Shown here in pieces: positions 12,810-64,000 of a DNA stretch of 64,000 bases; positions within the stretch are counted from its first letter, which is position 1; the number at the start of each line of letters is the position of its first letter. Below the pieces are notes generated by a model. It saw only the letters and a list, made by a program, of their open reading frames with translations. It did not search any database and was not told the origin of the DNA. The stretch is from Liolophura sinensis (taxonomy: Eukaryota; Mollusca; Polyplacophora; Chitonida; Chitonidae), in NCBI RefSeq assembly GCF_032854445.1, contig NC_088301.1, forward strand, positions 32,658,402-32,722,401, read 5' to 3'. The position numbers and the translations under genes were made by a program.

Positions 12810-12932
12810 TTCCTCTGCCTCAGCTAGGACCACTGCTTTTCACTCCCAGCTGTTGATCATTTCTCGTAATTCCAGCAGTGGTACACTTTCAGATCGAGTC
12901 TCCATTTTTACATAACCTGAATCAGCAATTGT
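12810..12932 (-). promoter_or_regulatory. IPP 5' leader with two upstream ORFs
   Basis: A strong acceptor (CCTTTTTCAG) begins this exon, implying a further upstream non-coding exon. Read on the minus strand it contains a start-stop uORF, ATGTAA (12913-12908). A 21-codon uORF follows (12905-12840) whose ATG has A at -3 and G at +4. The second uORF is in the same frame as the IPP start and ends in TGA 30 nt before ATG 12809. The main start has the weaker context, so translational control is plausible but inferred. Confidence 0.6.
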
Positions 12933-27219: not shown

Positions 27220-30200
27220 TTATGTTTTCTCCACCTTTAAGCTTCTGTTTTTAGCGTACTCTGCTAGTCTGTCGTCTCTACCCTGTTCCCACATGCTGAG
27301 TTCAGCCACTGACATCAACTCCTTCATAACTATTCTCATCAGCACATCACAGTCACCAAACACCCTGCTCCCAAGGGCTTTCCCATCAGGCCCTGTTTTC
27401 AGGCACTCCTTGTCCATGTGAGTCTTCTGTCTGAAAATTGGCAAAGACATTGATTGACACATTTGTGACCATTATACATGTAACCTGTTTCTGGTGCTGG
27501 ATTGAGGTGGTACTATGGTTTAGCCATCTTCATTACACTTGCTTTCAAAACTGGAGTTTTGAAGGCTTTTTATAAGTTTATAAAGGTCATGAACTCTTAT
27601 TTTATTGCATAGTGCTGATCTCTTGAAAAGATCATGAGCTCTTCATTTTATTGCATGGTGCTGATCTTTTGAAAGATCATGAGCTCTTCATTTTATTGCA
27701 TGGTGCTGATCTTTTGAAAAGATCACGAGCTCTTCATTTTATTGCATGGTGCTGATCTTTTGAAAAGACCAGTAAAAGCTATGACAGGACTGAAGTGCAC
27801 CAATTTCCTCACCGTTTATTACATTAGCCTCAATGTGGCAGTGCAACCAAATGAAGTCTTCTTCAGCGTTCACTCTACCATTTGATTGATGAATGTAATT
27901 TAGAAAATGGTTTCAGTTTACAAGATTTCATTGTTTCAGATTACTCTCTTTGACTGTTGCGTACAATTATAGCACCAAGTTTCTAGTGTTGAAATTTACC
28001 ACTCCGATACCTGTGGGTGATATGGCCTGGACAATTAATGGGTATTACTGGCAATTAAAAATACCCAACCCAGTGGTCTCTGCAACATTTCAACAGGAAA
28101 ATCTGTGGATTAATTACCCTGAAAGTGTAATAAATCTCAAATACCTAATAATGCTGCAAAAAACCTTGTATCCCATTGAGTACAGTGTACAGGAATACAT
28201 GTACACGGAAAATATAATTTGAAAACACTCCTCGACTCAATATTTACCTCATTGAATTATTATTAAGATAATGTCTGGCTGTTGTATCATTTTGCTGTCT
28301 TTTTACTTTCCCAAATCTATATTTGTCTCCATACCTGTACCTATACTGGCAATGTTAACCAGGAAATTTAGTCCTCCAAACGGTGGTAAAATACACGTAA
28401 ATGCTGAAATGTTAAACTGAGTTTTTCAATTTTCAGATTTACACCACTCGTGTAAAACAATACCGTTTAATCCAATGATATTTCATTTATTGCTCAGTTT
28501 GATGATGCTTGTTTGTTACCTGACTGACTCAGACTTGCACTCTTGCTATACCAGAAGTCATCCCTTCACCACTTCAGGGTTCACTTCAAAATACATGTGA
28601 CCGTTTTGACCAGTGGTTGCTCCTAACTAATACATTTTTAACGATTCCAGTTGAATAGATTTGATTTGATTGGTGCTTTATGTTGTACTAAAGAATAATT
28701 CACTTATATGATGGCAGCCTGCATTATAGTGGGAGGAAACTTGAGCAGAGCCTGAGGGAAAGCCATGACCTCCACAGGATGCTGGCAGACCTTCCCATGT
28801 ACGACCAGAGAGGAAGTCTCCATGAGCCCACACCGACCGTATTGGCGAGAGGTTCCTCGGTCATTGTGCTGCGCTAGCTAGCTAACCACCCCGCCATGGA
28901 GGCCCCCAATGTTGCTGTTGAACCTGTTACAGATGACAATCCTGTGAGGGTGTCCAGTGATCTGCACGAGGTTGCTGGCCGGTGTGACTGTCAGGGTAGT
29001 GCCCAAGCACAGCATTAAGTCTCTCTTTTGACACTGCTCAGTTGCTCTTGACAGAATATCCTCCTCTAAATTGTCACGAAAGTTTATGATTGTGTCACGA
29101 AGATAGCCATTACAGCCCTAGAGAGGAGAAATACGAAAACAAGGAGAATTACCCTAAATGACAGAAAATTTCGACCCCAAAAGTGCATTTTTAGAGGCAA
29201 ATAACTGTCACAAAATACTGCTTTTGGTGATGAAGCAAACTTCAGAACACCTTTCTTAACTCAATAGAGCTCTCAGAATCAGGAGACGTGGACAATGTTA
29301 ATCCTCAACAGAATCTCTGGTCATTTAAGGTAGCTGTGCCCATGATTTATTTATTTGATAGGAGTTTTTTGCCTCACCCAAGAAGAATTCACGCACAGCA
29401 AATTTGACAAATACATTGACTTCAAGAATTGGCTGAAACAAGTGGGAGTTGTTACCAATAAAATATCTTATTAATGTCTTACCATTATTATGAAATGGTC
29501 TCCAGAAGAATAAGTGAAATAATCTTGATTATTGCATAAAACGCCATCCATATAATTAAATAAATAAATACTTGTGTAACAAGACACCTTTCTACTGCTT
29601 GTATCAGCAATCAGAGGTTATTAACAGCCTTCATGGTAGAGTGCAGGCTTTCAGCTGAGAAGATGCGAGTTCAAATCCACATGTGAAATTCTTACCCTCT
29701 GCATGCATTGTCTGCCTGTTCTGTGAGATAAACCACAAAGCTTACACTGTGAAGCGTGTGCTGGCTTCACAACATCCGTCTCCCCAAAATCTGCCAATTC
29801 CTCATAATACGCACTGGCTGTGTCATCCATGACATAAAATGGTCTGTGGTATCGTTTCTGGCACTTTTCACACACTTCTGTGAAGACATTTCCATGGAGC
29901 TCGGACAGAGCCTGGGCTGGTACTCCAGACAAACAGTGAAGTCCATCACAGTTCTGACTGATGACATGTTTGATGTAACCCAGTTCCATCAACTTCTGTA
30001 TGGCTTCATGTGTGTATGTCGGCCTCAGCTCTTCATAGCATACTTCATCTTCTAAAATGACAGAATTACACAGTCAAAGGTATAAAAATACCTTTGCCTA
30101 ACATATATGATAAGCTGGATACTGAAAATCATACAGGATTGCAAACAACAGAATGCAAAAAACACATATAACATTAGTATGTATGTACATGTGTATGCTT

Positions 30201-32765
30201 GAGGTTTAATGCCATACTTAAGAATGATGAAAAATCATTAGGTGCGTGTACATATAATGTGTCTTCATGTGGCAGCGCGAGTCCATGGCGCCAAAGTGCT
30301 GCCAACATTGAAGTATCATGCCGATGGCACCAGACATGACCCCTCACTCTGTCTCATTATACTCACTCCTGGCCAACCAGTCATGTTTCCTTGCACTAAC
30401 CTCTCAGTGCTGAACACCAGATGAAAGGCAGCAACAAGAGCCATTTTTGAACTTTTTGGTATGACCCTACCCGGGTTAGTTCCCGAGGTCTCCAGACTTC
30501 GAAGCCACCAAAACGGTCTATGACATCAGTCACTGAGTCTCAGAAATGTCAAGATGTTAAAATATGTTGATGTTTTTCAGCTAAGGTAGAATATACATGC
30601 TTAATGGAGTTTGCCGAAGCTGTCTGTTGTACATCTAGGTTTAAAAGTATTTCACTCCCAGATGCTTAAATTCCTTCTGAATGGCTTGAAAAAATATCAC
30701 GTCATTTACTGTGGGCTTTCCAGATTAGTAATACAAAACTAAAATCTGTCTGAAGGTAGGTCTTATGCCACTTTAACTCCAGAACTCACTATTACAGCTA
30801 TTTCCTGAGATCCCTCCTAGCCATAGCTTACTCATAAAAGTGTGCACTTTAATTTGGAGAATCACCACAAGGGAAGTAACTTGGGGTATCTGTATTCAAA
30901 TCACCCAGGGTCATAAACAGTTACCTTCTGAAGTGGAAGCTTCAGTTTCTTCTGGCTTAATTAGCTGTTTTTTCACTCGTTTAGTTGGAGGTTCTGTCAG
31001 TGAACTGTCTTCCTCAGATTCTATTTCCGCCTGCATCGCGTTCTCCATTCTCTGATCCTCCTTTGTCCACTTGCCATTCTTTCCTCTATAATCACCAATC
31101 CCCGCCGATGTGGATATCCCAGCCCCTATAACATGTAATGATTTAATAATCTGATTGGTACTTAAAGGGTATATGAAACGCTTGGTCATTATTTCTTAAT
31201 ATATGATGTGGCACAGCAAATTAAACTACAAAAAAGTTAATCAGCTTTTTTCTTGTGGTGTACAACTGGCTTTAAACTACAGTTTTTGTAAGCCATATGT
31301 CCATCAATGATATCATTTGCCACTGTTTCCGGGGATTGACAGAAGATATGTATAAAATAGAGGGGTTATTAAGAATTATAAATTAAACCAAAAAAAAAAA
31401 AAAACCTGTAAACTGTTGTTTTATTTTTTTGGCATGCCTTCCTTCGTGTTCCTTAAAACCATACTTGTTTTATAGTGCCCTTATGTATTCTTTAATGGGG
31501 TTTGTTAAAATTTACACAATTCTGCTCAGCTGCTGTGTTAATGAAACGTCCTAATATTCAAACACAGTTCAATAAAAATAAAATAAAACGTTTTACTCTT
31601 GAAAGTTTAAAATGTGTAGAACGATACTTTAGTGCAGAACAATGTACCAATCACAATCTAAGTTCTTTCCTGTTCTGAATTTTGCTTTTGAAGGACTTTC
31701 CATTTATGGCTTAAGTCTTAAGATGTTTGATAAATATGGTTCCAGGTTTACGGGTGCAAGAGCACTAAATCTGACCTAGAGTTTCGTAATAGCCAATGAG
31801 AGCAGGGCATATTGGAACCTGTCATCTCATTGGTCAAGGGCAGATTACCATAATTCCTCAACCATTTTGCATATACATGTAAATAGCAACTGTCAGTGTG
31901 ATTTATGCACATTTTCAATTTGATTTCCAAGACAATTACATTTCTTGGGTTGGCCATTATTGAGTCTTCAGAAAAAGCATAATTTTAACATTCTACATTA
32001 TCAGGATAATCACCTTAGAACATAGGTACACATGCTGAAAACATATGAAAAGGTTGTTGAATCACAGTAGCTATATGGACTTCACTTCAACACTTCAATT
32101 ACTGGAATAAGCCACCAAAGGCTAACTTGTACATAAAAGCTTACAAAACTGTTGACCTTCTACCTCAGTTTTAACACTAACAAGGCAGAACATTTATCAT
32201 CCATAATAATGGGTACAGCACTGAATAATTCAAACGAAAAATTTACAGCAGGATCGAAGTATATGTTGAAATATTCTGTTAGCTGAAATGTGAAGGATGC
32301 TCAATTCCGTGTTTATGCACACTGTAATTTATGTAGGTAGGATCAAGCGTTGTTATATACCATACCTGTAAACACAACACAGTGACTACATTGCTTAATC
32401 AACTTTACAATGCGCGTTGCTTCTATCCTGATCTTGTTCAATGAATCAAAGAATTCCGCCGTTTTGGCTGCCTCTTTCACCCATGTCTTTTCCACATCTT
32501 TCATCTGGGGATAAGGAGATCGTTTCCTATTTCGGCATCGAGCTGCCTTTAAGATACTTTCCCAACACGACTGGTGAAACGTCGCATCTCCATTTGTGCC
32601 CCATGCAACAAGGAATTCGTTATATTTTCGGAGACTTTCACGGGCAGACTTCTCAGAAATGAAGGTGTTCACTTCCACGCGTGGTTCATCCTGACAACTT
32701 ATTTTCTTGTCGAAATCACACTTTTTCAAAGAACAACAGACAGATGTTTCGCTTGTCACAGCCAT
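27220..32765 (-). CDS. Sirtuin, SIRT6/7-like (class IV) branch
   Basis: Coding exons, 5' to 3' on the minus strand: 32765-32366, 31125-30925, 30051-29696, 29117-28924, 27430-27220; phases agree and give 453 aa. The Rossmann/NAD signature FTGAGISTSAG starts near 132, DYRGKNGKWT is at 145-154, and SQNCDGLH (232-239) holds the NAD-contacting Asn/Asp. ELHGN carries the presumed catalytic H253. Zinc-site cysteines are CEKC (261/264) and C316/C321, with an extra CKLC (303/306). LRDTI and CLGTTLTVTPASNL follow. By family this is an NAD-dependent protein deacylase, probably nuclear. Oddities are a Gly where most sirtuins have Pro (GIGDYRG), about 50 extra residues (157-209) that are acidic and carry a basic cluster KRVKKQLIK (182-190), and a 130-residue N-terminal extension. 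Vertebrate SIRT7 is the nearest type I recall, but strict orthology is unproven. Confidence 0.9.
27431..28660. other. Sirtuin intron 4, mostly without recognised features
   Basis: Apart from the four-copy repeat at 27586-27775, I recognise no exon or element in this intron segment. Confidence 0.4.
27586..27775. repeat. 46-bp tandem repeat, 4 copies
   Basis: The unit reads AGATCATGAGCTCTTCATTT then TATTGCATGGTGCTGATCTTTTGAAA. The first copy is most diverged. It lies in the last sirtuin intron. Confidence 0.92.
28661..28908 (-). mobile_element. SINE family A, near full-length, beside a splice donor
   Basis: Reverse copy from TTGATTTGATTGGTGCTTTA through TGCATTATAGTGGGAGG and GACCAGAGAGGAAG to the head end CCATGGAGGCCCCC. 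In sirtuin orientation its head begins about 16 nt inside the intron that starts at 28923. Confidence 0.88.
29345..29400 (-). mobile_element. SINE family A tail fragment
   Basis: TTTATTTATTTGATAGGAGT followed by GCCTCACCCAAGAAGAATTCACG resembles the reversed family A tail. It is short and diverged. Confidence 0.4.
30180..30540 (-). mobile_element. SINE family B copy
   Basis: Reverse copy with GTGCGTGTACATATAATGTG, CACCAGACATGACCCC, TCACTCCTGGCCAACCAGTC, TAACCTCTCAGTGCTGAACA and the box-B region complement ACCCGGGTTAGTTCCCGAG. It lies in sirtuin intron 2. Confidence 0.75.
31126..31844. other. Sirtuin intron 1 segment, no feature recognised
   Basis: AT-rich, with an A14 run near 31390. I see no exon or dispersed element before the MITE-like copy. 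Confidence 0.4.
31845..32071. mobile_element. MITE-like element B, copy 3
   Basis: The left end TACCATAATTCCTCAACCAT..GCATATAC pairs with the right end CATATGAAAAGGTTGTTGAATCACAGTA. It lies in sirtuin intron 1. Confidence 0.6.
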
Positions 32766-34692: not shown

Positions 34693-37600
34693 ATGGCGTC
34701 TGCTAGTAAAATATTTACAGGCTTTAGAGCACTGGGATACGTTAGCAATCACATCCCTTTAGCTGTTCGACATCATAACAAACGAGGCGAAAACTATGTG
34801 GTAACGTCAGTAGGAAAGGCGTTTCACACTTATAATGTAAGTGAGCTGTCATTCAGGCTATGCCTTCACCTTCTGGTAGAGTTAGTAGTACTGTATGATA
34901 TCTATGTTTCGACTTGACTCTGAGTCATGTCACCCTGGACATTGTTCAAGGAACCGCAGCTGTTTGAAGCCGATGAAATCCAGACCCCAATTCAGATCAT
35001 TATCGCACACTACTCTGGATATACAAGATACCGCATGCAGGTCAATTTCCAGTTTATCACCTATAGTATGACAAGGGACCTGCAGTACATAACCACCACA
35101 CTGCCAGTCTGCACCAGTAGAAATAATATAACATGGTGATTATATGACTCTGGGTCAAGTCAGAACCATAAAACACAGTCATATTGTATACCCTAATTCC
35201 TCAACTTTTTCTCATATGAAACAGCAACTTTCAGTGCATTTTATCGTCATTGGTTGCATTGGTCAGTTTGAGGGCTTCACAAAAATTGTAATTTTAACAA
35301 GACTACACAGAATAATGCCTTAATAATAAACACTGTGGAAACATGCGTAAAGGTTGAAGAATTACTGTAGGACTCATTAGTATACCTAGTCTTCGAGGAC
35401 TTTTAGCCTTCCAGATTTCAACTCGTATCTCTCTCACACGTTGCATGTTTCTCTCAGTGAAACCATCATATTTGTTACCTGTAACATGTAACTCTGATTG
35501 GAGCGGTGCAGCCACGAGAATGACATATTTGCGGCTACAATTCAACCTCCAAGGTGGCATCTTCAAATAACGAGGGTGACAGCGCATGTATAACATTTTG
35601 GCTGGCTGAACCTCGGCTAATCATCTGTGTTTTTACATATATATGTATATTACATACACCAAACACATCCTGGCTATTAGCAGGACGTAATGCAATGTCA
35701 GTAGTATTCAGCTTATTTTGCCTGTTTTACCACCATGCAGGCAGCAGTTAGTAGCACCTTTGTTGTCAGTTTTTCTTGAGGGCGTGGGGAACATAGTGCC
35801 AAGTGAGGTCAACAGGGCTTGTAGGGCCATTTAGGTGATCTAAGATAAGTCATCATATTTTGGTTACTATATAAATGTTTTCCACCAATATAATGATAAG
35901 CATGTAATTCTGCATGGTAAGGTCAAAGTCTTTCTCAGATATGTGACAAAGCTTGTCGGGTACTTGTCAGAGGAGGGTGGTTTACTATAGACTTTCAGTT
36001 TTTCGGCTTCACAAGAAATTACCATTGTTGTAGAAATGAAATATTGTTGAGTAATATGGAGTTGAACCCCACTCAATAAATATGGGTCAGTGTCCTATTG
36101 CAATGAAAGCTGTACATGGGAAGATATGGCAGCAACCTACGAATGGTCGTGGGTTTCCCAGGGACTACCGTCGTATAAGTGAAATATTCTTGAGTACGGC
36201 GTAAAACACCAATAAAATAAATGAATATTGCAATGAAGGAATGATTATGGCTGAATATAAAGCCAACAAAAGAAGTCCGTGTTATATCAGGTGGTTAAAA
36301 AAGGCAAACATTAGCCTGTTCACTGGTGTGATTTGTAGATTTTCCCATTCTCACCATCGATGGGGTCTAGGTGACAGCAAGCGGTTGATGATGATGGTGT
36401 GGTGATGGTGTGGTGATGGTGTGTGGTGATGGTGTGTGGTGATGGTGATGGTGTGGTGACGGTGTGGTGATGGTGTGGTGATGGTGTGTGGTGATGGTGT
36501 GGCTATTTCTGCAGTCTAATGACTTTTCAAGACTGCTTTTATACCTCCATTATAGTGTTTACATATTTGTAGGTCACATCTGGTCAGTAACTTCCCAAAG
36601 GTTGTTCGCACTTCTCTTTGCACTTCTCTTTCTTCCACCTGTAAAACTGACTGCTATCATATAATTGAAGAATTCTTGAGCAGGGCATTAACAACAGTCA
36701 AATAAATAAATAAAAAAGAATAGTCATGTACCCTGAAATATCACTACTGTTACAGTTGATTTCACCACAGCAGGCGACTTGATCTGAAATATCACGACTA
36801 TTACAGTTGACTTCACCACAGCAGGCGACTTGATCTGAAATATCACTACTATTACAGTTGACTTCACCACAGCAGGCGACGATCTGAAATATCACCACTA
36901 TTACAGTTGACTTCACCACAGCAGGCAACTTGATCTGAAATATCACCACTATTACAGTTGACTTCACCACAGCAGGCGACTTGATCTGAAACATCACTTC
37001 TATTACAGTTGACTTCACCACAGCAGGCGACTTGATCTGAAATATCACTACTATTACAGTTGACTTCACCACAGCAGGCGACTTGATTTCCAGACTGTCC
37101 ATACGGACTGGCTTGAGGAAATCTCTGAAAAAACTTTAAAGCCATATTCTATTACACCCCAGGAAGATGGCTGAGGAGCTTTTTTGTACTTTTATATGTT
37201 TATATAGACCACACCATGAACTTCATAGTAAGAAATAGAATGTAAATTTCATGTATCCTGTAAATCGTGTGTTGTCATCTTATTTTATACAGTTTGCATT
37301 TTTTCTCATGTTGTAGTGCTCAAGACTTGGGATTGTTAGCGTCAGTAAGTAAACATCATTAGCACATTCTGTACTTATGATTTACATATAGCTTAAGTGG
37401 TAGTGAGGACACGCCCTATGGGTGATTACTCACACTGACCTGATTACGTGTAGCTTAAGTGGTAGTCAGGACACGACCTATGGGTGATTACTCACACTGA
37501 CCTGATTACGTGTAGCTTAAGTGGTAGTGAGGACACGCCCTATGGGTGATTACTCACACTGACCTGATTACGTGTAGCTTAAGTGGTAGTGAGGACACGA

Positions 37601-40600: not shown

Positions 40601-43600
40601 GAAAGAAGCTCTTGCTTGTATTTGAGAATAAACAAATTGGGCTGGTTTCCTCACAGGGCTCTGTTCTGTCCACTTCTCCTGGATACTGTCTGACTCTGAC
40701 TTGCTCCCTAATCCCTGACGCAGCCTTGAGATTTTCGTCTACCTGTCTGTGTGCATAAAATAGCCTCTGGGAGCAGGACATGGTAGAGTGGTTAAAGGGG
40801 CTTGTCTTTCATTTGTAAGACACAGGAGATGAGAGTTCCACTCTCCCAACCCTGCAGTGTAACTGACTTTTTTCCCTGTTGTTATTGGCTTTTTAGCGAA
40901 GGAATGTTGTGTTATTATTTCAGGTTATCCACACATATGAAGGTCATGAGGCAACTGTTCATCTCCTCCTGCCATTTGGGAATCACCTTATTTCCGTGGA
41001 CAAGAACAGTTGTATGAAAATCTGGGATATCAGATCTGAAGGTATAAGCATGAAATGTAAAGGTTCAACTAGTTTTTACTTTCACTTCAGGTTTTTGTCT
41101 CTCTCTGTTTTGATTATGATGGAGGAAATGTGTATGATAAAAATATGGTATGAATCCAGAGGGAGACTGCATGGCATAGTTCTGTTCTTGTCTTCTCTGG
41201 GGAGTTTTATGCCATACACAAATATTTTGAGCAAGGAAACAGGACTGGTTGGCTCGGTGTCAGTATAATGTGACTGGGTGGGGTGTTGTGTCTGGTGTCT
41301 TCGGTATGATGCTTCAGTGCCGGCAGCACTTTGGTGGCATGACTTGACCTGCCATAAGAAGACAGAATATATTTGCACACTTCTAATGACTCCTCATTAA
41401 ATCCATTGTATATGTAAACTAAACCAGCTGGGACACAAAGGCTGCTGCTATCAAAAGGGGAAGTAACTTTGTGTGACTTTAGGTTATTGTGAAATTTGAG
41501 CATTTTTTTTTTTTTTTGACATTACCCACATTTAAGTTCTGCAGAAATACCATCTGATAAATCCTTCATTAAAAATTCATAAAACATTGCTGACTCAGCC
41601 CTCTATGAACTTATAAATTCCTGTATGAAAACTGGATTTTGACATTGAGCTTTATCTTTCAGAACTGTATCTGGAAATACAGTTTGAGAACAGAAATTTC
41701 CAGGTGACTGCGTTGATGCACCCAAACACATACCTGAACAAGATTGTGCTGGCCAGCAAACAGGGAACAATGCAGTTGTGGAATATCAAAACAAACAAAC
41801 TCGTTTACACCTTCAAAGGCTGGAATGAAGCAATTCTTGTCCTAGAGCAGGTAGGTTGTTTGTGGAATCTAATGGATGTAGTGTTTGTAGATCATGTTGA
41901 CAAATACCATACTTGATAGAATAAGATTTTATTTAGTTATATCACTGATAGATAATACTTATCACTGATAAATCAGATGTCTGATATTTCAGGCTCCAGC
42001 TGTAGACGGGGTAGACATTGGCTTAATGATGTCTGATATTTCAGGCTCCAGCTGTAGATGTGGTAGACATTGTTGTAATGATGTCTGATATTTCAGGCTC
42101 CAGCTGTAGATATATCAGGCATTGATGTAATGATGTCTGATATTTCAGGCTCCAGTTGTAGATGTGGTAGACATTGGTGTAATGGTGTCTGATATTTCAG
42201 GCATTGATGTAATGATGTCTGATATTTCAGGCTCCAGCTGTAGATATATCAGGCATTGATGTAATGATGTCTGATATTTCAGGCTCCAGTTGTAGATGTG
42301 GTGGACATTGGTGTAATGATGTCTGATATTTCAGGCTCCAGCTGTAGATATATCAGGCATTGATGTAATGATGTCTGATATTTCAGGCTCCAGCTGTAGA
42401 TATATCAGGCATTAATGCAATGATGTCTGATATTTCAGGCTCCAGCTGTAGATATATCGGGCATTAATGTAATGATGTCTGATATTTCAGGCTCCAGCTG
42501 TAGATGTGGTAGACATAAGTGTAATGATGTCTGATATTTCAGGCTCCAGCTGTAGATGTGTCAGGCATTGATATGATGATGTCTGAAATTTCATGCTGCA
42601 TCTGTAGATGTGGTGGACATTGGTGTTATGATGTCTGATATTTCAGGCTCCAGCTGTAGATGGGGTAGACATAAGTGTAATGATGTCTGATATTTCAGGC
42701 TCCAGCAGTGGATGTGGCAGGGATTGGTGTAATGATGTCTGATATTTCAGGCTCCAGCAGTGGATGTGGCAGGGATTGGTGTAATGATGTCTGATATTTC
42801 AGGCTCCAGCAGTGGATGTGGCAGGGATTGGTGTAATGATGTCTGATATTTCAGGCTCCAGCAGTGGATGTGGCAGGGATTGGTATGGCAGACGGACAAA
42901 TCTACTTACATAACCTCAGGTTTGATGAAACTGTCATGAGCTTCCGGCAGGAATGGGGACCCGTCACAGCAATATCATTCCGAACAGGTGAGGCTGAAGC
43001 ATTTATCAACTTCTCAGTATACAGTTTTGGTTTGCACTGCTATACATCCAGACTCTTTATTTTCTGGACCGCTTGGGTGGCCTGATGGTGAGAGCGTCTG
43101 CCTCGAAGACGGGAGACACCTATGGATGGTCGTGGGTTTCCCCTGGGCTCTGCCCGGTTTCCCCCCACCATGATGCTGGCCGTCGTCGTATAACACCAAT
43201 CAAATAAATAAATATAAAAGTCCATGACTGAATTAATTTAATTCACTTAAAATAGACTACCAGTAGAGTATGTACGTAAGTGGGCTATATAGGTATAGCG
43301 AGGCGAAAAAGAATTAGATTGTGGAGAATTTCATCACAGCTGTGATGTTTACAAGATTTCCTTGAGATTTTCCTTGGGATAAAAAGGAAACTGATGCTCT
43401 TAAAACAAAAAAAAAAACATGTAGGTTGTTGAATGTTAGAGCTCTCTATCTGTACACAGATTGTGGACATGTGTAACAGAGAGTAAAGCACTCGATGGTA
43501 TATTTCTTTGTAATCAGATGGTGAAGGTAATGTATGGGTTTTGGGTTTCCATACACCTTTCTAAAGGGTAACATGCCCCAGATTACACCGAAATAAGTTG

Positions 43601-46600
43601 AAATCTGTAGCTGACGTATGTCCAGCAGCAGAGATGATAATGGGATAATTGTTTCATTAGTGGGAGTGGGTGGTGGGAATCCGTAGTCAAAACAACACTG
43701 TCAAACAGACTGATAATTAAGTCCTGCGCTCCACATATTTCACAAAAAGTCAGAATTGAGTTTTAGTGAAATGTATTCAGTTTGTCTCAAGCTTACAGCA
43801 TACTTTTGAGTTTTTTAAACTCTGTATTCAGTATTTTGAATTTAACAGTAGTTAAGGTCGACCTCTCTGAATTTGTCTTCCACGACATAGCGGGGATATT
43901 TGTGTATCAAACGTGGGAAAATTCACCACTAACTTGCCGTAGGCTGGAGGTTTTCACCCACACCCACATCAACATCCTCCACCCGTGAAACTGCCTGCCA
44001 TTGTACAAGTGATCTTGTTGTTGTTGTTGCTGCTACAGATGGACACCCCGTGATGACTACAGGAAGTTCTGTTGGGCATATTGCATTGTGGGATTTAGAA
44101 GAGCGAAAGCTGAAGAGCCAGATACGACGAGCTCACGACAGTGCTGTGTCTGGGATGAAGTGCTTACCCTGTGAGCCTCTGATGGTCACTTCCTCACCTG
44201 ACAACTCGTTAAAGGTAACTCATAAATCACTCAAACAGCTTACCTAAAGGTTTGTTGACAACACCAGTAACAGGTAACAATGAATACTTTGAGCCATACA
44301 GGTGGATTAGATTAAAGGATGTGTGAAAATGAACTCTAAATCAAAAACTATTGTTTTAAAGGAAATGCTTATGCCAAAAAAGAAAAGATAGACAAAAGTA
44401 AGTTTGAGGCATATGTTTAATCTCTTAATAACTGCTCTATTTTATCCATATTTTTGATCATTTGTCAGGAATTATTGGACATTTCATTGATAAACAATAA
44501 TACAGGGAACCTGGGACCACTGTAACCCCAGTTCGTGTTCCCTACTCCATATCCAAAGTTGTTTTATTTATTTATTTATTTAATTGGTGTTTTATGCCGT
44601 ACTCAAGAATATTTCACTTATACGATGGCGGCCAGCATTATGGTGGGTGGAAACCGGGCACAGCCCGGGGGAAACCCCACGACCATCTGCCGGTCACCCA
44701 TTATCATCTGCTTTGATGCACATCAAAAGAATAAGTTTAGGGTCATTATGTGCTTCCGAAAGCATATTTTTACTAAACTTCAGGTGAAATGCAGTAGACA
44801 GGAGATTTTTTGGCTTTATTATAGGCAACTCCAATTTTAATTGTAAAATAAATAGTTTGTCATGGAATTTAGGGTGGACATGTCTTTGAAGGTGTGTACA
44901 TTTACTTTGTGTACCCCCATATCAGGTGTGGATATTTGATCTTCCGGATGAAGGGGGACGACTCTTGCGCCAGAGGGCAGGTCACAGTGCCCCACCGTCC
45001 AAACTCTGTTACTATGGTGATAAGGGTCAGACCATTCTCAGTGCAGGTAAGCGAAAGGTCAATTGACTGAAAATTCTGTCTTAATGCCATTCAAAGACGG
45101 TTTCCTGTAAAACGAAAAGCCCTTACATTCAGTGCAGGTAGAAAGACATGTCAGTGTAAAAAGACTACTTCAGTGGACTAGTGGTAAGAACATCCGCCTT
45201 AAAGTTGGGAGGCCTTGGATCAAACCTGGGTCGGATTAGATCTGGGTGGGGTCACACCTGGGTGGGGTCAAACCTGGGTGGGGTCACACCTGGGTGGGGT
45301 CAAACCTGGGTGTGGTCACACCAAAGAATTTACGAATAGTACTTGTTGCTGCCTGGCGTTGGTGATCAGTGTTAAAAGGTTAAAACAGGACTGGTTAGCC
45401 TGGTGTCAGTATAGTGTGACTGGGTGAGGTGTCATGTCTGGTGTCTTCAACATGGTACTACAGTGGCAGCTGCATTTTGGTGGCGGTTGACCTATTTGCA
45501 ACAGTACTACTTATGATTGGTCAGTTGTGTGTTCCTGACTGACTGTTCGGACAGTTCAGGGCTACTTGAAGGCCCAGCCTTTGTTTGGCTTATCAGGTTT
45601 AAAATAAAAAAACAAAACAACAACCAGGTTGTCTATTGAAGAGTTTCTTAAATGATATTTCATTTTAGAGGAACATGTTAGAGTGTTTTTTCTTACAAAA
45701 ATAAGATCTTTGTATGATTGTTAGATAATTTATCATACTTTGTTTCCACAAATGAAGTGAGCACATGTGTCTACATTTAACAGTTCAATTTTCAGTATTA
45801 TGGGCTCATAGAGATCAGTTACCAGATAGTACATGTAAGGGTAGGCAAAATCTGAACACAGTGAAAATAACCATAAAAATTATATATGAATGTTCTTTAC
45901 GTCTGATTTATTTGATTGGAGTTTTACATAGTACTCAAGAATATTTCACTTATATGACGGTGGTCAGCATTATGATGGAAGGAAACTGGGCAGAGCCTGG
46001 GGAAAAGCCATGAGCTGAACTTGAACTCACAGTGAGCACATTGGTGAGAGGCCTCTGGGTGGTTGTGCTGCACAACCACGCTAACCACTAGGCCACGGTT
46101 CCTCCCCACCCCTCCCATTTTATGATTGTGTGATTTAAGTAGACATTATTTGAGATTATATTCTTATCAGACTTGCATGCTAAGCCTGAAGTCTAGTCTA
46201 AAGCATGTAGTGTTAACTTTTATCATGTATTTATTTATTTGATTGTTCTAATGCCATACACAAGAATTTTTGGCATGTGATATTCGGTATGGTTTCAGGA
46301 CAGGACAGTACCTTGAGGTCATTCTCCACCGTGCATGAAAAACACAGTAAAAGCTTGGGAAGAGCGTCCTATAATAAATCCAACAGCAAGAAGTCAGGAC
46401 TGAAGAATGATCGACACAGGATGCCTTCTGTTGTTGAATTAGCTGCAGGTAAGAGTAAGGACGCGTCAGTCTAGTGTAACTCTCAAAACAGTGGAGGTTA
46501 AGAGTGGTCTTATTGCTAATTATGTATTAACAGTGTGGTACCAGTGACAAACTTTCAAGAACACCTTGTGATAAAGCGTTGTGTTGTGTTGAAAATAGCA

Positions 46601-55600: not shown

Positions 55601-57241
55601 CTTATGTATAGGACTGCACACTGATTTATTCAACAGGGGCCACTCGCACAAAGCAATTGTAGGCTGTGAAGTTGATTGTAACTACCATGGTAACATGTTT
55701 TAATTTGAGTTGCCATGGTAGTTACAACGCACTTAGCTTACAACCACATTGTGCAAGTGCCCCCAGTATCATTGGTTCAGCTATGTTGCCTTTGAATGAC
55801 TTCCAATTGACTTACTGACTTCAGGTAAAGTGTCAGCTTCAGTTAAACCTGGACTTACTGCACTCTGACTTAAGGTAAAGTGTCAGCTTCAGTTAAACCT
55901 GGACTTACTGCACTCTGACTTAAGGTAAAGTGTCAGCTTCAGTTAAACCTGGACTTACTGCACTCTGACTTAAAGTAAAGTGTCAGCTTCAGGTAAACCT
56001 GGACTTACTGCACTCTGACTTAAGGTAAAGTGTCAGCTTCAGGTAAACCTGGACTTGCTGCACACTGACTTAAGGTAAAGTGTCAGAATCAGCTAAACCT
56101 GGACTTACTGCACGCTGATTTAAGGTAAAGTGTCAGCTTCAGCTAAACCTGGACTTACTGCACGCTGATTTAAGGTAAAGTGTCAGCTTCAGCTAAACCT
56201 GGACTTACTGCACTCTGACTTAAAGTAAAGTGTCAGCTTCAGGTAAACCTGGACTTACTGCACGCTGATTTAAGGTAAAGTGTCAGCTTAACCTTGATTT
56301 ATCTTTCAGTTCGCTCCATATTGAAGAAGTTTAAGGAGCTTGGTCCATCAGCCATTGATCTGGAGATAAGATCCCTGTCCTCAGACAATGGTGGTTCTAC
56401 TGAATTGATGGGTCAGTTCTTGAGATTTATTCAACATATCCTGGCCACCAAGAAGGACTTTGAACTGGCCCATGCATATCTGGGGCTGTTTCTTAAGGTA
56501 CATGCATTGTTAGTTAGTTATTGTATGTAACAACACACCCACGCCAACAGTTATTACTGGTGCTGATGAACATTTTCCTGGTTCAAAAATTATACCTGAG
56601 CTCGATATTGATGAAATGTTGCTATTGTGGTGTTAAACCACTATAAATCATGTTCATGGGTTTCCACCAGGCTCTGTCGTCGTATACATGAAATATTCTT
56701 GAGTGTGACATATAACACCAATTGAATAAATAAATAAATCAAATTTATATCAAATGTGCACCTAGTCATGTAGAAGAACCTAATGTGACTTGGTTTCAAG
56801 ATTTTTGGGTCTGTGCAGTATTTTGTAAACAGAGTGTTTCTTGAAAAAAAAACAAACTTGTTGGCCTCCAGTACATCTGGTGCAAAACTAATCTTTTATC
56901 ATTTCTTATTTTCAGGCACTTGTATTTTTCGCTGAAGTTTATGTACAAATACTATTTAATAACATTGCTGTCCAACTGTGAATTCATGGGTATTTAGTCA
57001 TAATGTTATCATTCATCCATTTCCACAAAGGAAAAGCTGGATTACAGAGTATGTATATATTTAGTAACTTGTTGTTTGTGTTTACTTACAGCTACATGGT
57101 GAGCAAATGACCTCTGAGCCCCACTTGATAATGGCTGCCAAAGAATTAGCCAATCAGCAAGAGGCTTCCTGGCAACATCTTCAAAGAACGTTCAACCAGA
57201 CTTTGTGTTTAGTGAACTATCTCAGGAGTGCTACATTGTGA
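34693..57241 (+). CDS. WDR36: WD repeat-containing protein 36 (UTP21), SSU processome
   Basis: Twenty exons: 34693-34836, 37317-37344, 39847-39947, 40924-41041, 41663-41850, 42855-42987, 44039-44214, 44926-45046, 46299-46448, 47037-47194, 47705-47819, 48975-49140, 50121-50229, 51524-51603, 52369-52577, 53087-53238, 54302-54421, 55123-55207, 56310-56497, 57092-57241. Phases agree and give 896 aa, the size of the vertebrate protein. Landmarks are FTGFRALGYVSNHIP (8-22), WDR36-type WD blades through about residue 640 (HPNTYLNKIVLASKQGTMQL, TDGHPVMTTGSSVGHIALWD, MSPTGDYLVTSHVDDLGVYL), and the Utp21 C-terminal region from about 690 (NKPKEPPRVPKSAPFFLPTI, then LRSLSSDNGGS). By family it is a nucleolar U3 snoRNP/SSU-processome scaffold needed for 18S rRNA maturation. 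Introns hold at least four minisatellites and many SINEs. Confidence 0.97.
35188..35370. mobile_element. MITE-like element B, copy 4
   Basis: The left end ACCCTAATTCCTCAACTTTT..CATATG and right end CATGCG..AAAGGTTGAAGAATTACTGTAG form terminal inverted repeats. The core shares GGGCTTCACAAAAATTG with copy 1. It lies in WDR36 intron 1. Confidence 0.65.
35836..36085 (+). mobile_element. SINE family C, diverged copy
   Basis: ATGTGACAAAGCTTGTCGGG, TACTTGTCAGAGGAGGGTGG and flanking blocks resemble the family C core. It is diverged, so the boundaries are approximate. Confidence 0.4.
36111..36226 (+). mobile_element. SINE family A, head-truncated copy
   Basis: TGTACATGGGAAGATATGGC, AATGGTCGTGGGTTTCCCAG, TATAAGTGAAATATTCTTGA and AAAACACCAATAAAATAAAT identify it. 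It lies in WDR36 intron 1. Confidence 0.85.
36310..36716 (+). mobile_element. SINE family C copy containing a GATGGTGTG expansion
   Basis: Starts near TGATTTGTAGATTTTCCCAT, contains TCTGGTCAGTAACTTCCCAA and TGACTGCTATCATATAATTG, and ends in a TCAAATAAATAAATAA tail. Positions about 36385-36500 are an expanded GATGGTGTG simple repeat, which is the variable spot in this family. Confidence 0.65.
36720..37090. repeat. 51-bp minisatellite, about 7 copies
   Basis: The unit is CTGAAATATCACTACTATTA then CAGTTGACTTCACCACAGCA then GGCGACTTGAT; one copy lacks CTT. The unit length divisible by three yields a spurious minus-strand ORF. It lies about 230 bp before the 28-nt WDR36 exon. Confidence 0.95.
37385..39565. 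repeat. 62-bp minisatellite, about 35 copies
   Basis: The unit is TAGCTTAAGTGGTAGTGAGG then ACACGACCTATGGGTGATTA then CTCACACTGACCTGATTACGTG. Recurring variants are CGACC/CGCCC, AGTGG/AGGGG, GTGAGG/GTCAGG and a 60-bp form lacking AC. It begins about 40 bp after the donor of WDR36 exon 2 and ends about 280 bp before exon 3. Confidence 0.97.
40241..40430 (+). mobile_element. SINE family A copy with tRNA-like head
   Basis: Head GGGCCTCCATAACTGAGGTG..GGTTAGCATGG, box B GCGAGTTCAAGCCCG, then AGCAACATGCGGATGG and CCGTTTCCTCCCACCGTAAT. The middle has deletions. It lies in WDR36 intron 3. Confidence 0.8.
41210..41400 (+). mobile_element. SINE family B, head-truncated copy
   Basis: GGAAACAGGACTGGTTGGCT, CAGTATAATGTGACTGGGTG, GATGCTTCAGTGCCGGCAGC and CTAATGACTCCTCATTAAAT match the family B body. 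It lies in WDR36 intron 4. Confidence 0.8.
41960..42890 (+). repeat. 52-bp minisatellite spanning the WDR36 exon 6 acceptor
   Basis: The unit is TGATGTCTGATATTTCAGGC then TCCAGCTGTAGATGTGGTAG then ACATTGGTGTAA. GATATTTCAG occurs 17 times intact, giving AG|GC junctions at 41993, 42045, 42097, 42149, 42201, 42231, 42283, 42335, 42387, 42439, 42491, 42543, 42647, 42699, 42751, 42803 and 42855, plus one degenerate copy near 42595. Only 42855 continues into the rest of WDR36 exon 6. The three units before it carry the exact exon start GCTCCAGCAGTGGATGTGGC. Confidence 0.97.
43068..43218 (+). mobile_element. SINE family A variant with a different tRNA-like head
   Basis: Head GCTTGGGTGGCCTGATGGTG followed by AGAGCGTCTGCCTCGAAGAC resembles the family B head, but the body (TGGATGGTCGTGGGTTTCCC, CCCACCATGATGCTGGCC) and tail (ACACCAATCAAATAAATAAA) are family A. 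It may be a chimaera. Confidence 0.8.
43832..44015 (+). mobile_element. SINE family C, partial copy
   Basis: ACGTGGGAAAATTCACCACT, AACTTGCCGTAGGCTGGAGG and CGTGAAACTGCCTGCCATTG correspond to the family C core. It ends 20-30 bp before WDR36 exon 7. Confidence 0.5.
44562..44694 (-). mobile_element. SINE family A, 3' part
   Basis: TTTATTTATTTATTTAATTG, GCCGTACTCAAGAATATTTC, GGCGGCCAGCATTATGGTGG and CAGCCCGGGGGAAACCCC identify it. It lies in WDR36 intron 7. Confidence 0.9.
45164..45500 (+). mobile_element. SINE family B copy with internal 16-bp expansion
   Basis: Head GACTACTTCAGTGGACTAGT and box-B-like TTGGATCAAACCTGGG are followed by about five copies of a 16-bp unit (GGGTGGGGTCAAACCT, 45240-45320). 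The unit looks like expansion of the box-B region. The body ACAGGACTGGTTAGCCTGGT, CAGTATAGTGTGACTGGGTG follows. Confidence 0.8.
45905..46108 (-). mobile_element. SINE family A copy
   Basis: TTTATTTGATTGGAGTTTTA, CAAGAATATTTCACTTATAT, TCAGCATTATGATGGAAGG, box-B complement TGAACTTGAACTCACAG and head complement CTAACCACTAGGCCACGG. It is internally deleted and lies in WDR36 intron 8. Confidence 0.85.
46226..46275 (-). mobile_element. SINE family A tail fragment
   Basis: TTTATTTATTTGATTGTTCT then AATGCCATACACAAGAATTTT, about 20 bp before the acceptor of WDR36 exon 9. Confidence 0.6.
47820..48974. other. WDR36 intron 11, no feature recognised
   Basis: Contains short AT-rich low-complexity runs, including a T16 near 48845. 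I see no exon, SINE or tandem array. Confidence 0.4.
49500..49802 (-). mobile_element. SINE family A, full-length copy beside a tail fragment
   Basis: A short tail fragment (about 49500-49555) is followed by a nearly complete reverse copy from TATTTATTTATTTATTTGAT through CAGCATTATAGTAGGTGG, GGACCAGAGGAAGCTAGC and TGGACTTGAACTCACAGCG to CCACTAGGCCACATAGGCCC. It lies in WDR36 intron 12. Confidence 0.85.
49803..50010 (+). mobile_element. SINE family C, partial copy
   Basis: TGATTTGTACATTTCCCTGC, GTGACAGTAAGCAGTTATGA and AGATTGCTAAAGGTCAGTGG match the copies at 22490 and 36310. It directly abuts the family A copy. Confidence 0.55.
50374..50726 (+). mobile_element. SINE family B, best-preserved copy
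   Basis: tRNA-like head CAACTACTTCAGTGGCTTAA..TGCTTCGAAGTC with box-B-like GGGATCAAACCCGGG. Body GGAAACAGGACTGGTTGACC, CAGTATAATGTGACTGGGTG, CACACCTAATGACTCCTCAT and an end AAACCCCAAACATTCATTCA. It lies in WDR36 intron 13. Confidence 0.85.
50727..51523. other. Rest of WDR36 intron 13, no feature recognised
   Basis: No further dispersed or tandem repeat and no supported exon. Confidence 0.4.
51744..52004 (-). mobile_element. SINE family A, near full-length
   Basis: TTATTTATTTATTTGAAAAG, GTACTCAAGAATATTTCACT, CCAGCATTTTGGTGGGAG, CGCAGGTTGCTGGCATCCCT and head complement CTTAGCCATGGAGCCCCC. It lies in WDR36 intron 14. Confidence 0.88.
52600..52867 (+). mobile_element. SINE family A, full-length reference copy
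   Basis: Shows the whole structure: head GTGGCTCAGATGTTTAGCAC..GCTAGCGCAGCATAATGACC, box B GTGAGTTCAAGTACA, body GTGGGAAGGTCTGCCAGCAA, CCGGTTTCCTCACGCCATAA, tail GTAAGTGAAATATTCTTGAG and CACCAAATAAATAAATAAAT. It lies in WDR36 intron 15. Confidence 0.92.
53276..53565 (+). mobile_element. SINE family B copy
   Basis: Head CAGCCTTTAGTGGCCTAACA..GTTAGAGTGTCCAGC, body GGAAATAGGACTGGTTGGCC, CAGTATAACGTGACTGGGTG, and end TAAAACCCCAAGCATACATA. It starts about 40 bp after WDR36 exon 16. Confidence 0.8.
53850..53975 (+). mobile_element. Diverged SINE (family A or C) tail copy
   Basis: Contains ATGTGGCAGACCTGAAGGCT, ATTCTTGAGTGTGGCATTAA and GATAAATAAACA, resembling the shared SINE tail. The head is not recognisable. 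Confidence 0.4.
54537..54622 (+). mobile_element. SINE family A middle fragment
   Basis: CATGCCAGCTTCCTCTCTGA, CATGGGAAGGTTGGCCAGCA and CTGCCTGGTTTCTTCC. The 27-bp array begins where it stops. Confidence 0.6.
54623..55120. repeat. 27-bp minisatellite, about 12 copies, split by a SINE
   Basis: The unit is TTTGTTTACATCTTACATGA then TTATCAC, with length variants. Copies run to about 54942 and resume at about 55074. The last copy runs directly into the acceptor of WDR36 exon 18 (GTTGAACAG|GGC). Confidence 0.9.
54943..55073 (+). mobile_element. SINE family A, 3' part inserted in the 27-bp array
   Basis: GTGGCCTGCGGCAATCTGTG, CCAGTTTCCTCCCTCCATAA, CATCTTATAAGTGAAACATA and CACCAATCAAATAAATAAAT, flanked on both sides by copies of the 27-bp unit. 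Confidence 0.85.
55636..55764. mobile_element. Foldback (MITE-like) element, 129 bp
   Basis: Terminal inverted repeats GGGGCCACTCGCACAAAGCA and GGGGGCACTTGCACAATGTG (read inward) extend through GTAACTACCATGG near the centre. It resembles the element at 4584-4715 in plan and in the central CATGGTAGTT block. Confidence 0.65.
55820..56295. repeat. 50-bp minisatellite, about 9 copies
   Basis: The unit is GGTAAAGTGTCAGCTTCAGT then TAAACCTGGACTTACTGCAC then TCTGACTTAA. It ends about 15 bp before the acceptor of WDR36 exon 19 (TTATCTTTCAG|TTCGC). Each unit carries a donor-like AAG|GTAAAG and an acceptor-like TCAGCTTCAG. Confidence 0.95.
56655..56745 (+). mobile_element. SINE family A, 3' fragment
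   Basis: ATGGGTTTCCACCAGGCTCT, CGTATACATGAAATATTCTT and CACCAATTGAATAAATAAAT. It lies in the last WDR36 intron. Confidence 0.75.
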
Positions 57242-60239: not shown

Positions 60240-63200
60240 CCCAGTTTATGAGTTAAGGAAACCGGAGAGCAAGGAGAGAACCATCATCATGGCTGTCAGC
60301 TTTATCAGTTAAGCCATGGAGCTCAGAGTAAACCATATGCCTTCACCATGTACCCGACAAACTTGCCAGAATTACGTCAGGCCTTAATTTACATCATGGC
60401 AGTCAGGTTTATGAGTGAAGGAAACCATAGAGCTCAGAGTAAATCATTTCCCTTCACCAGGTTCCCGACAAACTTGCCAGAATCACGTCATGCCTTAATT
60501 TACATCATGGCAGTCAGGTTTATGAGTGAAGGAAACCATAGAGCTCAGAGTAAATCATTTCCCTTCACCAGGTTCCCGACAAACTTGCCAGAATCACGTC
60601 ATGCCTTAATTTACATCATGGCAGTCAGGTTTATGAGTGAAGGAAACCATAGAGCTCAGAGTAAATCATTTCACTTCACCAGGTTCCCGACAAACTTGCC
60701 AGAATCACGTCATGCCTTAATTTACATCATGGCAGTCAGGTTTATGAGTGAAGGGAACCGGAGATGTTGACAGTAAGCTGTATGCCTTCACCAGGTACCT
60801 GACAAACTTGCCAAAATTACGTCAGGCCTTAATTTACATCATGGCAGTCAGGTTTATGAGTGAAGGAAACCGGAGATGCTTGCAGTAAACTGTATGCCTT
60901 CACCAGGTACCTGACAAACTTGCCAAAATTACTTCAGGCCTTAATTTACATCATGGCAGTCAGGTTTATGAGTGAAGGAAACCATAGAGCTCAGAGTAAA
61001 CCATATGCCTTCACCATGTACCTGACAAAATTGCCAAAATTACTACAGGCCTTAATATACATCATGGCTGTCAGGTTTATGAGTGAAGGAAACCATAGAG
61101 CTCAGAGTAAATCATTTCCATTCACCAGGTTCCCGACAAACTTGCCAAAATTACTTTTCAGGCCTTAATATACATCATGGCTGTCAGGTTTATGAGTGAA
61201 GGAAACCATAGAGCTCAGAGTAAATCATTTCCCGTCACCATGTACCCGACAAACTTGCCAGAATCACGTCATGCCTTAATTTACATCATGGCAGTCAGGT
61301 TTATGAGTGAAGGAAACCATAGAGCTCAGAGTAAATCATTTCACTTCACCAGGTTCCCGACAAACTTGCCAGAATCACGTCATGCCTTAATTTACATCAT
61401 GGCAGTCAGGTTTATGAGTGAAGGAAACCATAGAGCTCAGAGTAAATCATTTCCCTTCACCAGGTTCCCGACAAACTTGCCAGAATCACGTCATGCCTTA
61501 ATTTACATCATGGCAGTCAGGTTTATGAGTGAAGGAAACCATAGAGCTCAGAGTAAATCATTTCCCTTCACCAGGTTCCCGACAAACTTGCCAAAATTAC
61601 TTTTCAGGCCTTAATATACATCATGGCTGTCAGGTTTATGAGTGAAGGAAACCATAGAGCTCAGAGTAAATCATTTCCCGTCACCATGTACCCGACAAAC
61701 TTGCCAGAATCACGTCATGCCTTAATTTACATCATGGCAGTCAGGTTTATGAGTGAAGGAAACCATAGAGCTCAGAGTAAATCATTTCACTTCACCAGGT
61801 TCCCGACAAACTTGCCAGAATCACGTCATGCCTTAATTTACATCATGGCAGTCAGGTTTATGAGTGAAGGAAACCATAGAGCTCAGAGTAAATCATTTCC
61901 CTTCACCAGGTTCCCGACAAACTTGCCAGAATCACGTCATGCCTTAATTTACATCATGGCAGTCAGGTTTATGAGTGAAGGAAACCATAGAGCTCAGAGT
62001 AAATCATTTCACTTCACCAGGTTCCCGACAAACTTGCCAGAATCACGTCATGCCTTAATTTACATCATGGCAGTCAGGTTTATGAGTGAAGGGAACCGGA
62101 GATGTTGACAGTAAGCTGTATGCCTTCACCAGGTACCTGACAAACTTGCCAAAATTACGTCAGGCCTTAATTTACATCATGGCAGTCAGGTTTATGAGTG
62201 AAGGAAACCGGAGATGCTTGCAGTAAACTGTATGCCTTCACCAGGTACCTGACAAACTTGCCAAAATTACTTCAGGCCTTAATTTACATCATGGCAGTCA
62301 GGTTTATGAGTGAAGGAAACCATAGAGCTCAGAGTAAACCATATGCCTTCACCATGTACCTGACAAAATTGCCAAAATTACTACAGGCCTTAATTTACAT
62401 CATGGCAGTCAGGTTTATGAGTGAAGGAAACTGGAGATGCTCGCAGTAAACCATATGCCTTCACCAGGTACCTGACAAACTTGCCAAAATTACTTCAGGC
62501 CTTAATTTACATCATGGCAGTCAGGTTTATGAGTGAAGGAAACCATAGAGCTCAGAGTAAACCATATGCCTTCACCATGTACCTGACAAAATTGCCAAAA
62601 TTACTACAGGCCTTAATATACATCATGGCTGTCAGGTTTATGAGTGAAGGAAACCATAGAGCTCAGAGTAAATCATTTCCATTCACCAGGTTCCCGACAA
62701 ACTTGCCAAAATTACTTTTCAGGCCTTAATATACATCATGGCTGTCAGGTTTATGAGTGAAGGAAACCATAGAGCTCAGAGTAAATCATTTCCCGTCACC
62801 ATGTACCCGACAAACTTGCCAGAATCACGTCATGCCTTAATTTACATCATGGCAGTCAGGTTTATGAGTGAAGGAAACCATAGAGCTCAGAGTAAATCAT
62901 TTCACTTCACCAGGTTCCCGACAAACTTGCCAGAATCACGTCATGCCTTAATTTACATCATGGCAGTCAGGTTTATGAGTGAAGGAAACCATAGAGCTCA
63001 GAGTAAATCATTTCCCTTCACCAGGTTCCCGACAAACTTGCCAGAATCACGTCATGCCTTAATTTACATCATGGCAGTCAGGTTTATGAGTGAAGGAAAC
63101 CATAGAGCTCAGAGTAAATCATTTCCCTTCACCAGGTTCCCGACAAACTTGCCAAAATTACTTTTCAGGCCTTAATATACATCATGGCTGTCAGGTTTAT

Positions 63201-64000
63201 GAGTGAAGGAAACCATAGAGCTCAGAGTAAATCATTTCCCGTCACCATGTACCCGACAAACTTGCCAGAATCACGTCATGCCTTAATTTACATCATGGCA
63301 GTCAGGTTTATGAGTGAAGGAAACCATAGAGCTCAGAGTAAATCATTTCACTTCACCAGGTTCCCGACAAACTTGCCAGAATCACGTCATGCCTTAATTT
63401 ACATCATGGCAGTCAGGTTTATGAGTGAAGGAAACCATAGAGCTCAGAGTAAATCATTTCCCTTCACCAGGTTCCCGACAAACTTGCCAGAATCACGTCA
63501 TGCCTTAATTTACATCATGGCAGTCAGGTTTATGAGTGAAGGAAACCATAGAGCTCAGAGTAAATCATTTCACTTCACCAGGTTCCCGACAAACTTGCCA
63601 GAATCACGTCATGCCTTAATTTACATCATGGCAGTCAGGTTTATGAGTGAAGGGAACCGGAGATGTTGACAGTAAGCTGTATGCCTTCACCAGGTACCTG
63701 ACAAACTTGCCAAAATTACGTCAGGCCTTAATTTACATCATGGCAGTCAGGTTTATGAGTGAAGGAAACCGGAGATGCTTGCAGTAAACTGTATGCCTTC
63801 ACCAGGTACCTGACAAACTTGCCAAAATTACTTCAGGCCTTAATTTACATCATGGCAGTCAGGTTTATGAGTGAAGGAAACCATAGAGCTCAGAGTAAAC
63901 CATATGCCTTCACCATGTACCTGACAAAATTGCCAAAATTACTACAGGCCTTAATTTACATCATGGCAGTCAGGTTTATGAGTGAAGGAAACTGGAGATG
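60240..64000. repeat. 111-bp satellite in a 1561-bp higher-order repeat
   Basis: The monomer starts CAGTCAGGTTTATGAGTGAA and includes GAGCTCAGAGTAAATCATTT and TTAATTTACATCATGG. Distinct monomer variants (..TTACTTTTCAGGCC.., ..GGGAACCGGAGATGTTGACA.., ..GGAAACTGGAGATG..) recur at exactly 1561 bp: 61154 and 62715, 61601 and 63162, 62439 and 64000. Two near-identical 14-monomer units thus fill about 60.9-64.0 kb. The array is truncated by the window, and it is probably intronic to the minus-strand gene at 59-60 kb. The 111-bp period creates 37-residue repeat frames, which I do not regard as a gene. Confidence 0.97.

Follow-up and report, generated by a model that had tools for sequence, protein, structure and literature searches.

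The WDR36/UTP21 gene of Liolophura sinensis contains a 52-bp minisatellite which repeats the 3' splice site and the first codons of one coding exon, with 16 intact decoy acceptors ahead of the true one. With a probability of roughly 60%, the array grew by slippage, the last acceptor is mainly used through exon definition, the products of decoy splicing are decayed, and the array is a tolerated passenger. It represents a real, natural 17-fold duplicated-splice-site experiment in an essential single-copy gene, and most likely an accident that the gene tolerates. The steps of 52 nt form a built-in ruler, on which counts of junction reads would directly weigh proximity against exon definition. The array also illustrates that a minisatellite can enter coding sequence with protein length and frame unchanged, the real exon start being pushed to the last copy. 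All positions refer to the window, i.e., the whole analysed stretch of 64,000 nt.

The gene is located on the + strand at about 34.7 to 57.2 kb of the window. Its exons were found by tblastn with a human WDR36 query sequence and are collinear with human WDR36. The WDR36-Utp21 first propeller (Pfam PF25171, E 1.3e-81) and the Utp21 C-terminal domain (Pfam PF04192, E 3.3e-29) were both recognized above the curated cut-offs, and the protein piece whose coding sequence flanks the array matched human WDR36 in PDB 7mq8 with E 2.8e-45, so the gene had been correctly named in the first-pass annotation. The coding exons are intact and their borders match the splice consensus. WDR36 is a ribosome-building gene and is essential elsewhere. 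In the searched assembly (609 Mb in 632 contigs, which are very long), the Utp21 domain was identified at this locus only, the array segment occurred once, and neither a second WDR36 copy nor a second haplotype was found for comparison. Because no other locus in the genome showed the Utp21 domain, this one appears to be the sole WDR36/UTP21 copy, and a working mRNA must therefore originate here.

Coordinates of the array and of its surroundings are listed in the table. The exon downstream of the array had been designated exon 6, but among the coding exons identified by homology it is the fifth. Its start at 42855 was placed correctly, as this position keeps the frame and the homology to human WDR36 runs across the junction. 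The opening codons are GCT CCA GCA GTG GAT GTG GCA GGG ATT GGT, and the unusual residues VAGIG correspond to VVAIG in human. The exon ends at 42987, because G42987 sits in a codon GAT split with the next exon. If the first acceptor of the array were used, the preceding intron would be 142 nt long. No known structured RNA was matched in the region by Rfam search. A possible short interspersed element (GGCCTGATGGTGAGAGCGTCTGCCTCGAAGACGGG...) lies at 43060-43200, just 3' of the exon.

Table. Features of the WDR36 array and of the neighbouring exons and introns (window positions).
Feature	Position	Strand	Description	Basis
Coding exon before array	41663..41850	+	fourth coding exon by homology; ends ...GAGCAG|GTAGGT	tblastn, splice-border reading
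Intron containing array	41851..42854	+	1004 nt	exon borders
CTGAT	41965..41969	+	good branch-point match in unique flank, 24 nt before first decoy AG	yUnAy scan
52-bp minisatellite	41976..42884	+	per unit 17 nt of intron end, ~30 nt of exon start and 5 nt GTAAT filler	Tandem Repeats Finder, unit table
First B-type unit	42097..42148	+	others start at 42231, 42335, 42387, 42439	unit table
Truncated unit	42201..42230	+	30 nt	unit table
Broken acceptor GATGTCTGAAATTTCAT	42578..42594	+	the only one; AG lost (ATTTCAT, before 42595)	
Three identical C-type units	42699..42854	+	first 30 nt equal true exon start	distance table
True acceptor GATGTCTGATATTTCAG	42838..42854	+	sole frame-keeping site	homology spans junction
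True coding exon	42855..42987	+	133 nt; APAVDVAGIGMADGQIYLHNLRFDETVMSFRQEWGPVTAISFRT; donor ACAG|GTGAGG	
Downstream intron	42988..44038	+	1051 nt	

Tandem Repeats Finder reported period 52 at 41976-42202 (score 363) and at 42198-42884 (score 968). With about 17 head-to-tail copies of 52 bp and 89% matches, the array is a minisatellite in the usual sense (many copies of about 10-100 bp), real and far beyond chance. By direct reading, TGTCTGATATTTCAG is present 17 times at 41978-42840, as 16 decoys and the true site. The earlier count of intact decoys was right, except that one of them (acceptor before 42201) belongs to a unit of no more than 30 nt, where GCATTG comes next; the other 15 of 16 are followed by GCTCCAG. 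The composition ascribed to the unit, an acceptor with about 30 nt of coding sequence, was confirmed as well. In the three units next to the exon, the coding part shared with it measures 30 nt, while older units deviate from the exon at 5-10 of the first 31 bases.

Three types of units were recognized. A-type units are exon-like and carry GATGTGGTAGACATTGGT, in place of which B-type units carry GATATATCAGGCATTGAT; C-type units match the exon over 30 nt. In the middle of the B unit there is a second acceptor-like GATATATCAGGC (TCGGGC in unit 42439), which shares 11 of 12 letters with the acceptor GATATTTCAGGC and looks like a copy of it. Since the B-type units (42097-42490) hold this internal acceptor-like ATATATCAG|GC, the AG decoys number more than 17. 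The truncated unit would be a B unit that lost 22 nt by deletion between its two copies of GATATWTCAGGC, and the agreement of the B-unit repeats at 11/12 letters fits such a deletion.

Could the array, or its copy number, be an artefact of assembly? The three identical units are where a number could be miscounted, but few units are alike, the contigs of the assembly are very long and contain this locus once, and the window is rich in repeats of this class; of all explanations considered, this one is the most improbable. The window has 13 distinct arrays, with coordinates summing to about 17% of its bases. Genome-wide, triple acceptor-like words in tandem spacing occurred 2058 times versus 1999 for the reversed pattern, i.e., without an excess of acceptor-bearing arrays, and acceptors are therefore not preferred targets of array formation. 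The array in WDR36 thus resembles a by-product of ordinary slippage in a minisatellite-rich genome. It would have started with a tandem duplication over the intron-exon border, multiplied by replication slippage or unequal exchange into the 52-bp minisatellite, and the intron would have grown from about 142 to 1004 nt. As the three exon-adjacent units are identical and match the exon start exactly, the exon-side end was expanded or homogenised last, and recently.

Thirteen decoys are the same as the true site at every position from -20 to +3, and the remaining three intact decoys have 1-3 differences. On a small acceptor profile built from 16 further introns of this gene, the true acceptor is weak (score 7.6; own range 5.2-14.8), 13 decoys score equally, and three slightly higher, which counts against the preferred reading. 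Because of the 13 identical decoys, the local sequence score cannot explain the choice, which leaves position, exon definition or the sequence further into the exon as the only explanations. When read from exon 41663-41850, each of the 16 intact decoys leads to a stop 9-108 nt in, as does the broken decoy, and only 42855 stays open. As previously predicted, the next decoy upstream shifts the frame to a stop inside the exon, and the second one upstream meets TGA within the repeat; the first of these stops is a TAA 108 nt in, and the TGA is 93 nt in. Micro-exons formed with the internal donor of the unit were also considered and were ruled out by reading, as the introns would be only 24 nt, which is too short, and the frame would be lost.

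In human genes, the switch from intron to exon definition lies at about 250 nt, and exon definition favours the sites closest across the exon (PMC9225289). Since each of its flanking introns measures about 1 kb, the exon 42855-42987 is probably recognised as a unit, so that the acceptor nearest to the donor at 42988, which is the last copy, would be mainly used. The growth of the array would itself shift the exon into this regime. The first-pass annotation held that splicing must choose the last of 17 sites; it is right that only this acceptor keeps the frame, but an extraordinary mechanism need not be assumed, as ordinary exon definition favours it when the flanking introns are long (PMC9225289), and the human analogue ABCA7 likewise uses the copy next to the exon, with leakage of about 2% to the following unit (PMC5954066). 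In the strict class of acceptors with long introns on either side, the upstream preference is reduced and not clearly reversed (PMC9225289), which counts against the preferred reading, and leakage is therefore expected. Each copy is a complete acceptor with a candidate branch point, so some use of decoys is likewise expected; their RNAs would carry a frameshift and an early stop and would be removed by nonsense-mediated decay.

Under a different explanation, the acceptor nearest to the upstream donor is used, by intron definition or by scanning from the ancestral branch point, and most transcripts would have an early stop and the gene would be weakly expressed. The first decoy has CTGAT 24 nt upstream, a 142-nt intron and a score equal to that of the true site; the introns to the first three decoys would all be below about 250 nt, and competing acceptors generally favour the upstream one (PMC9225289). 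Both these intron lengths and the branch-point match of the first decoy, predicted to be the best in the array, count against the preferred reading. CTGAT at 41965..41969 is probably the ancestral branch point, judging from its sequence and place. Every unit contains a GTAAT, a candidate branch point located 18 nt from its AG, with the nearest upstream AG 30 nt away, and thus the true site need not rely on a distant branch point. A CTGAT closer to the unit AG is only 8 nt away; AGs less than 12-15 nt from the branch may be skipped (PMC1431707). Only at the first decoy is the better candidate, at 24 nt, retained, which would make some use of this decoy likely. Against predominant use of an upstream acceptor stand the single copy of a gene essential elsewhere and its intact coding exons. 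Moreover, between alternative acceptors separated by over about 20 nt the choice falls at the first step, through separate branch points (PMC9225289), and simple scanning is therefore inapplicable over 862 nt. Predominant use of an upstream acceptor is thus unlikely.

Folding of the RNA could instead mask the decoys, if the middles of A and B units paired with the acceptor segment and the exon-like units and the true site stayed more open. For the branch region, openness was predicted at about 0.5-0.66 in the four final sites versus about 0.2-0.56 elsewhere, but random substitutions at the same places give like values (fractions 0.24 and 0.47), and masking was rejected since they produce the differences equally well. 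In addition, a CTGA-TATT-TCAG hairpin is possible at all intact acceptors including the true one, and the last three decoys would stay open. This explanation is very improbable.

The array may also be a regulator, with its copy number setting the share of unproductive splicing, and hence the WDR36 dose, differently among individuals. Every decoy leads to an early stop, 16 of the 17 decoy acceptors are still intact, and the length of the ABCA7 repeat correlates with expression and skipping (PMC5954066). Clustering of the changes outside the acceptor gave p of about 0.01-0.03 with all changes counted, but 0.27-0.36 with block changes counted once. Selection preserving the acceptor segment was discarded, its significance vanishing when each block change is taken as one event. 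A regulator is quite improbable. An evolving dimmer is a little less probable still; in it, the number of identical acceptors would set the decayed fraction of WDR36 RNA and vary individually, and turnover would rewrite the first ten codons of the exon. The array is more probably the tolerated passenger proposed above, not an adaptation.

The most similar known system is human ABCA7, in intron 18 of which a 25-bp repeat starts with the real donor of exon 18 (PMC5954066). The exon-adjacent copy is normally used there; retention of one unit, in about 2% of transcripts, causes a frameshift and an early stop, and such transcripts increased when decay was blocked by cycloheximide (PMC5954066). Both repeats include a genuine splice site, lie in conserved genes and have many intronic copies (PMC5954066). 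In both, splicing at the next copy lengthens the transcript by one unit, with a frameshift and an early stop, in WDR36 according to frame reading. In ABCA7 the donor is repeated without coding sequence, while in WDR36 it is the acceptor together with coding sequence; for the ABCA7 repeat, length polymorphism (about 12 to 427 units) has been demonstrated and RNA data exist, while the WDR36 array is known from one assembly. In human IFI6 (G1P3, 6-16), as far as Turri et al. 1995 is related in PMC2572611 and PMC4526556, a minisatellite likewise provides several splice sites of one kind within one gene, but these are donors and the alternative units give distinct protein isoforms, whereas the WDR36 alternatives all break the frame. 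All units of the WDR36 array but one carry an acceptor, and both frame and homology mark the last as the real one. Since the repeated site is an acceptor and not a donor, the array is a variant of the ABCA7/IFI6 type and not a member of the donor type; it is the mirror image of these donor repeats. A partial literature search found no other case of an acceptor-side splice-site minisatellite.

Intron gain by tandem duplication is similar in that the duplicated piece spans an intron-exon border, with an acceptor and an exon start. There, one duplication creates a new intron, whereas in WDR36 an old intron only became longer and its copies do nothing or do harm; a single upstream donor at 41851 is common to all acceptors, and no extra protein exon was found in the array. 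NAGNAG tandem acceptors (PMC3250501) are also near-identical competing acceptors of one exon, but they lie a few bases apart and are chosen at the second step, whereas the WDR36 acceptors are 52 bp apart with their own branch regions.

Other repeats of the window were annotated as well. A 50-bp minisatellite at 55815-56289 of the same gene stops 20 nt before the acceptor of a further WDR36 exon, which starts at 56310, and excludes this acceptor. A 51-bp array (3 x 17 codons) on the - strand of a WDR36 intron, at 36701-37135, has two open frames (VACCGEVNCNSSDISDQ repeats), with no evidence of a gene in the array. The 111-bp array at 60285-63992 is at least 3.7 kb long, reaches the window edge and has long open frames on the + strand. 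Elsewhere in the assembly, contig C99 has seven COX1 copies about 15.5 kb apart, a head-to-tail mitochondrial concatemer that is probably an assembly artefact, while contig C632 has a single COX1 copy; the mitochondrial genes use the invertebrate code. Two genes were recognized on the - strand of the window, one of the SIR2 family at 29654-32765 (Pfam E 1.9e-11) and a BTB gene at 6104-12839 (Pfam E 1.3e-22), and kelch-like open frames are present in the same stretch.
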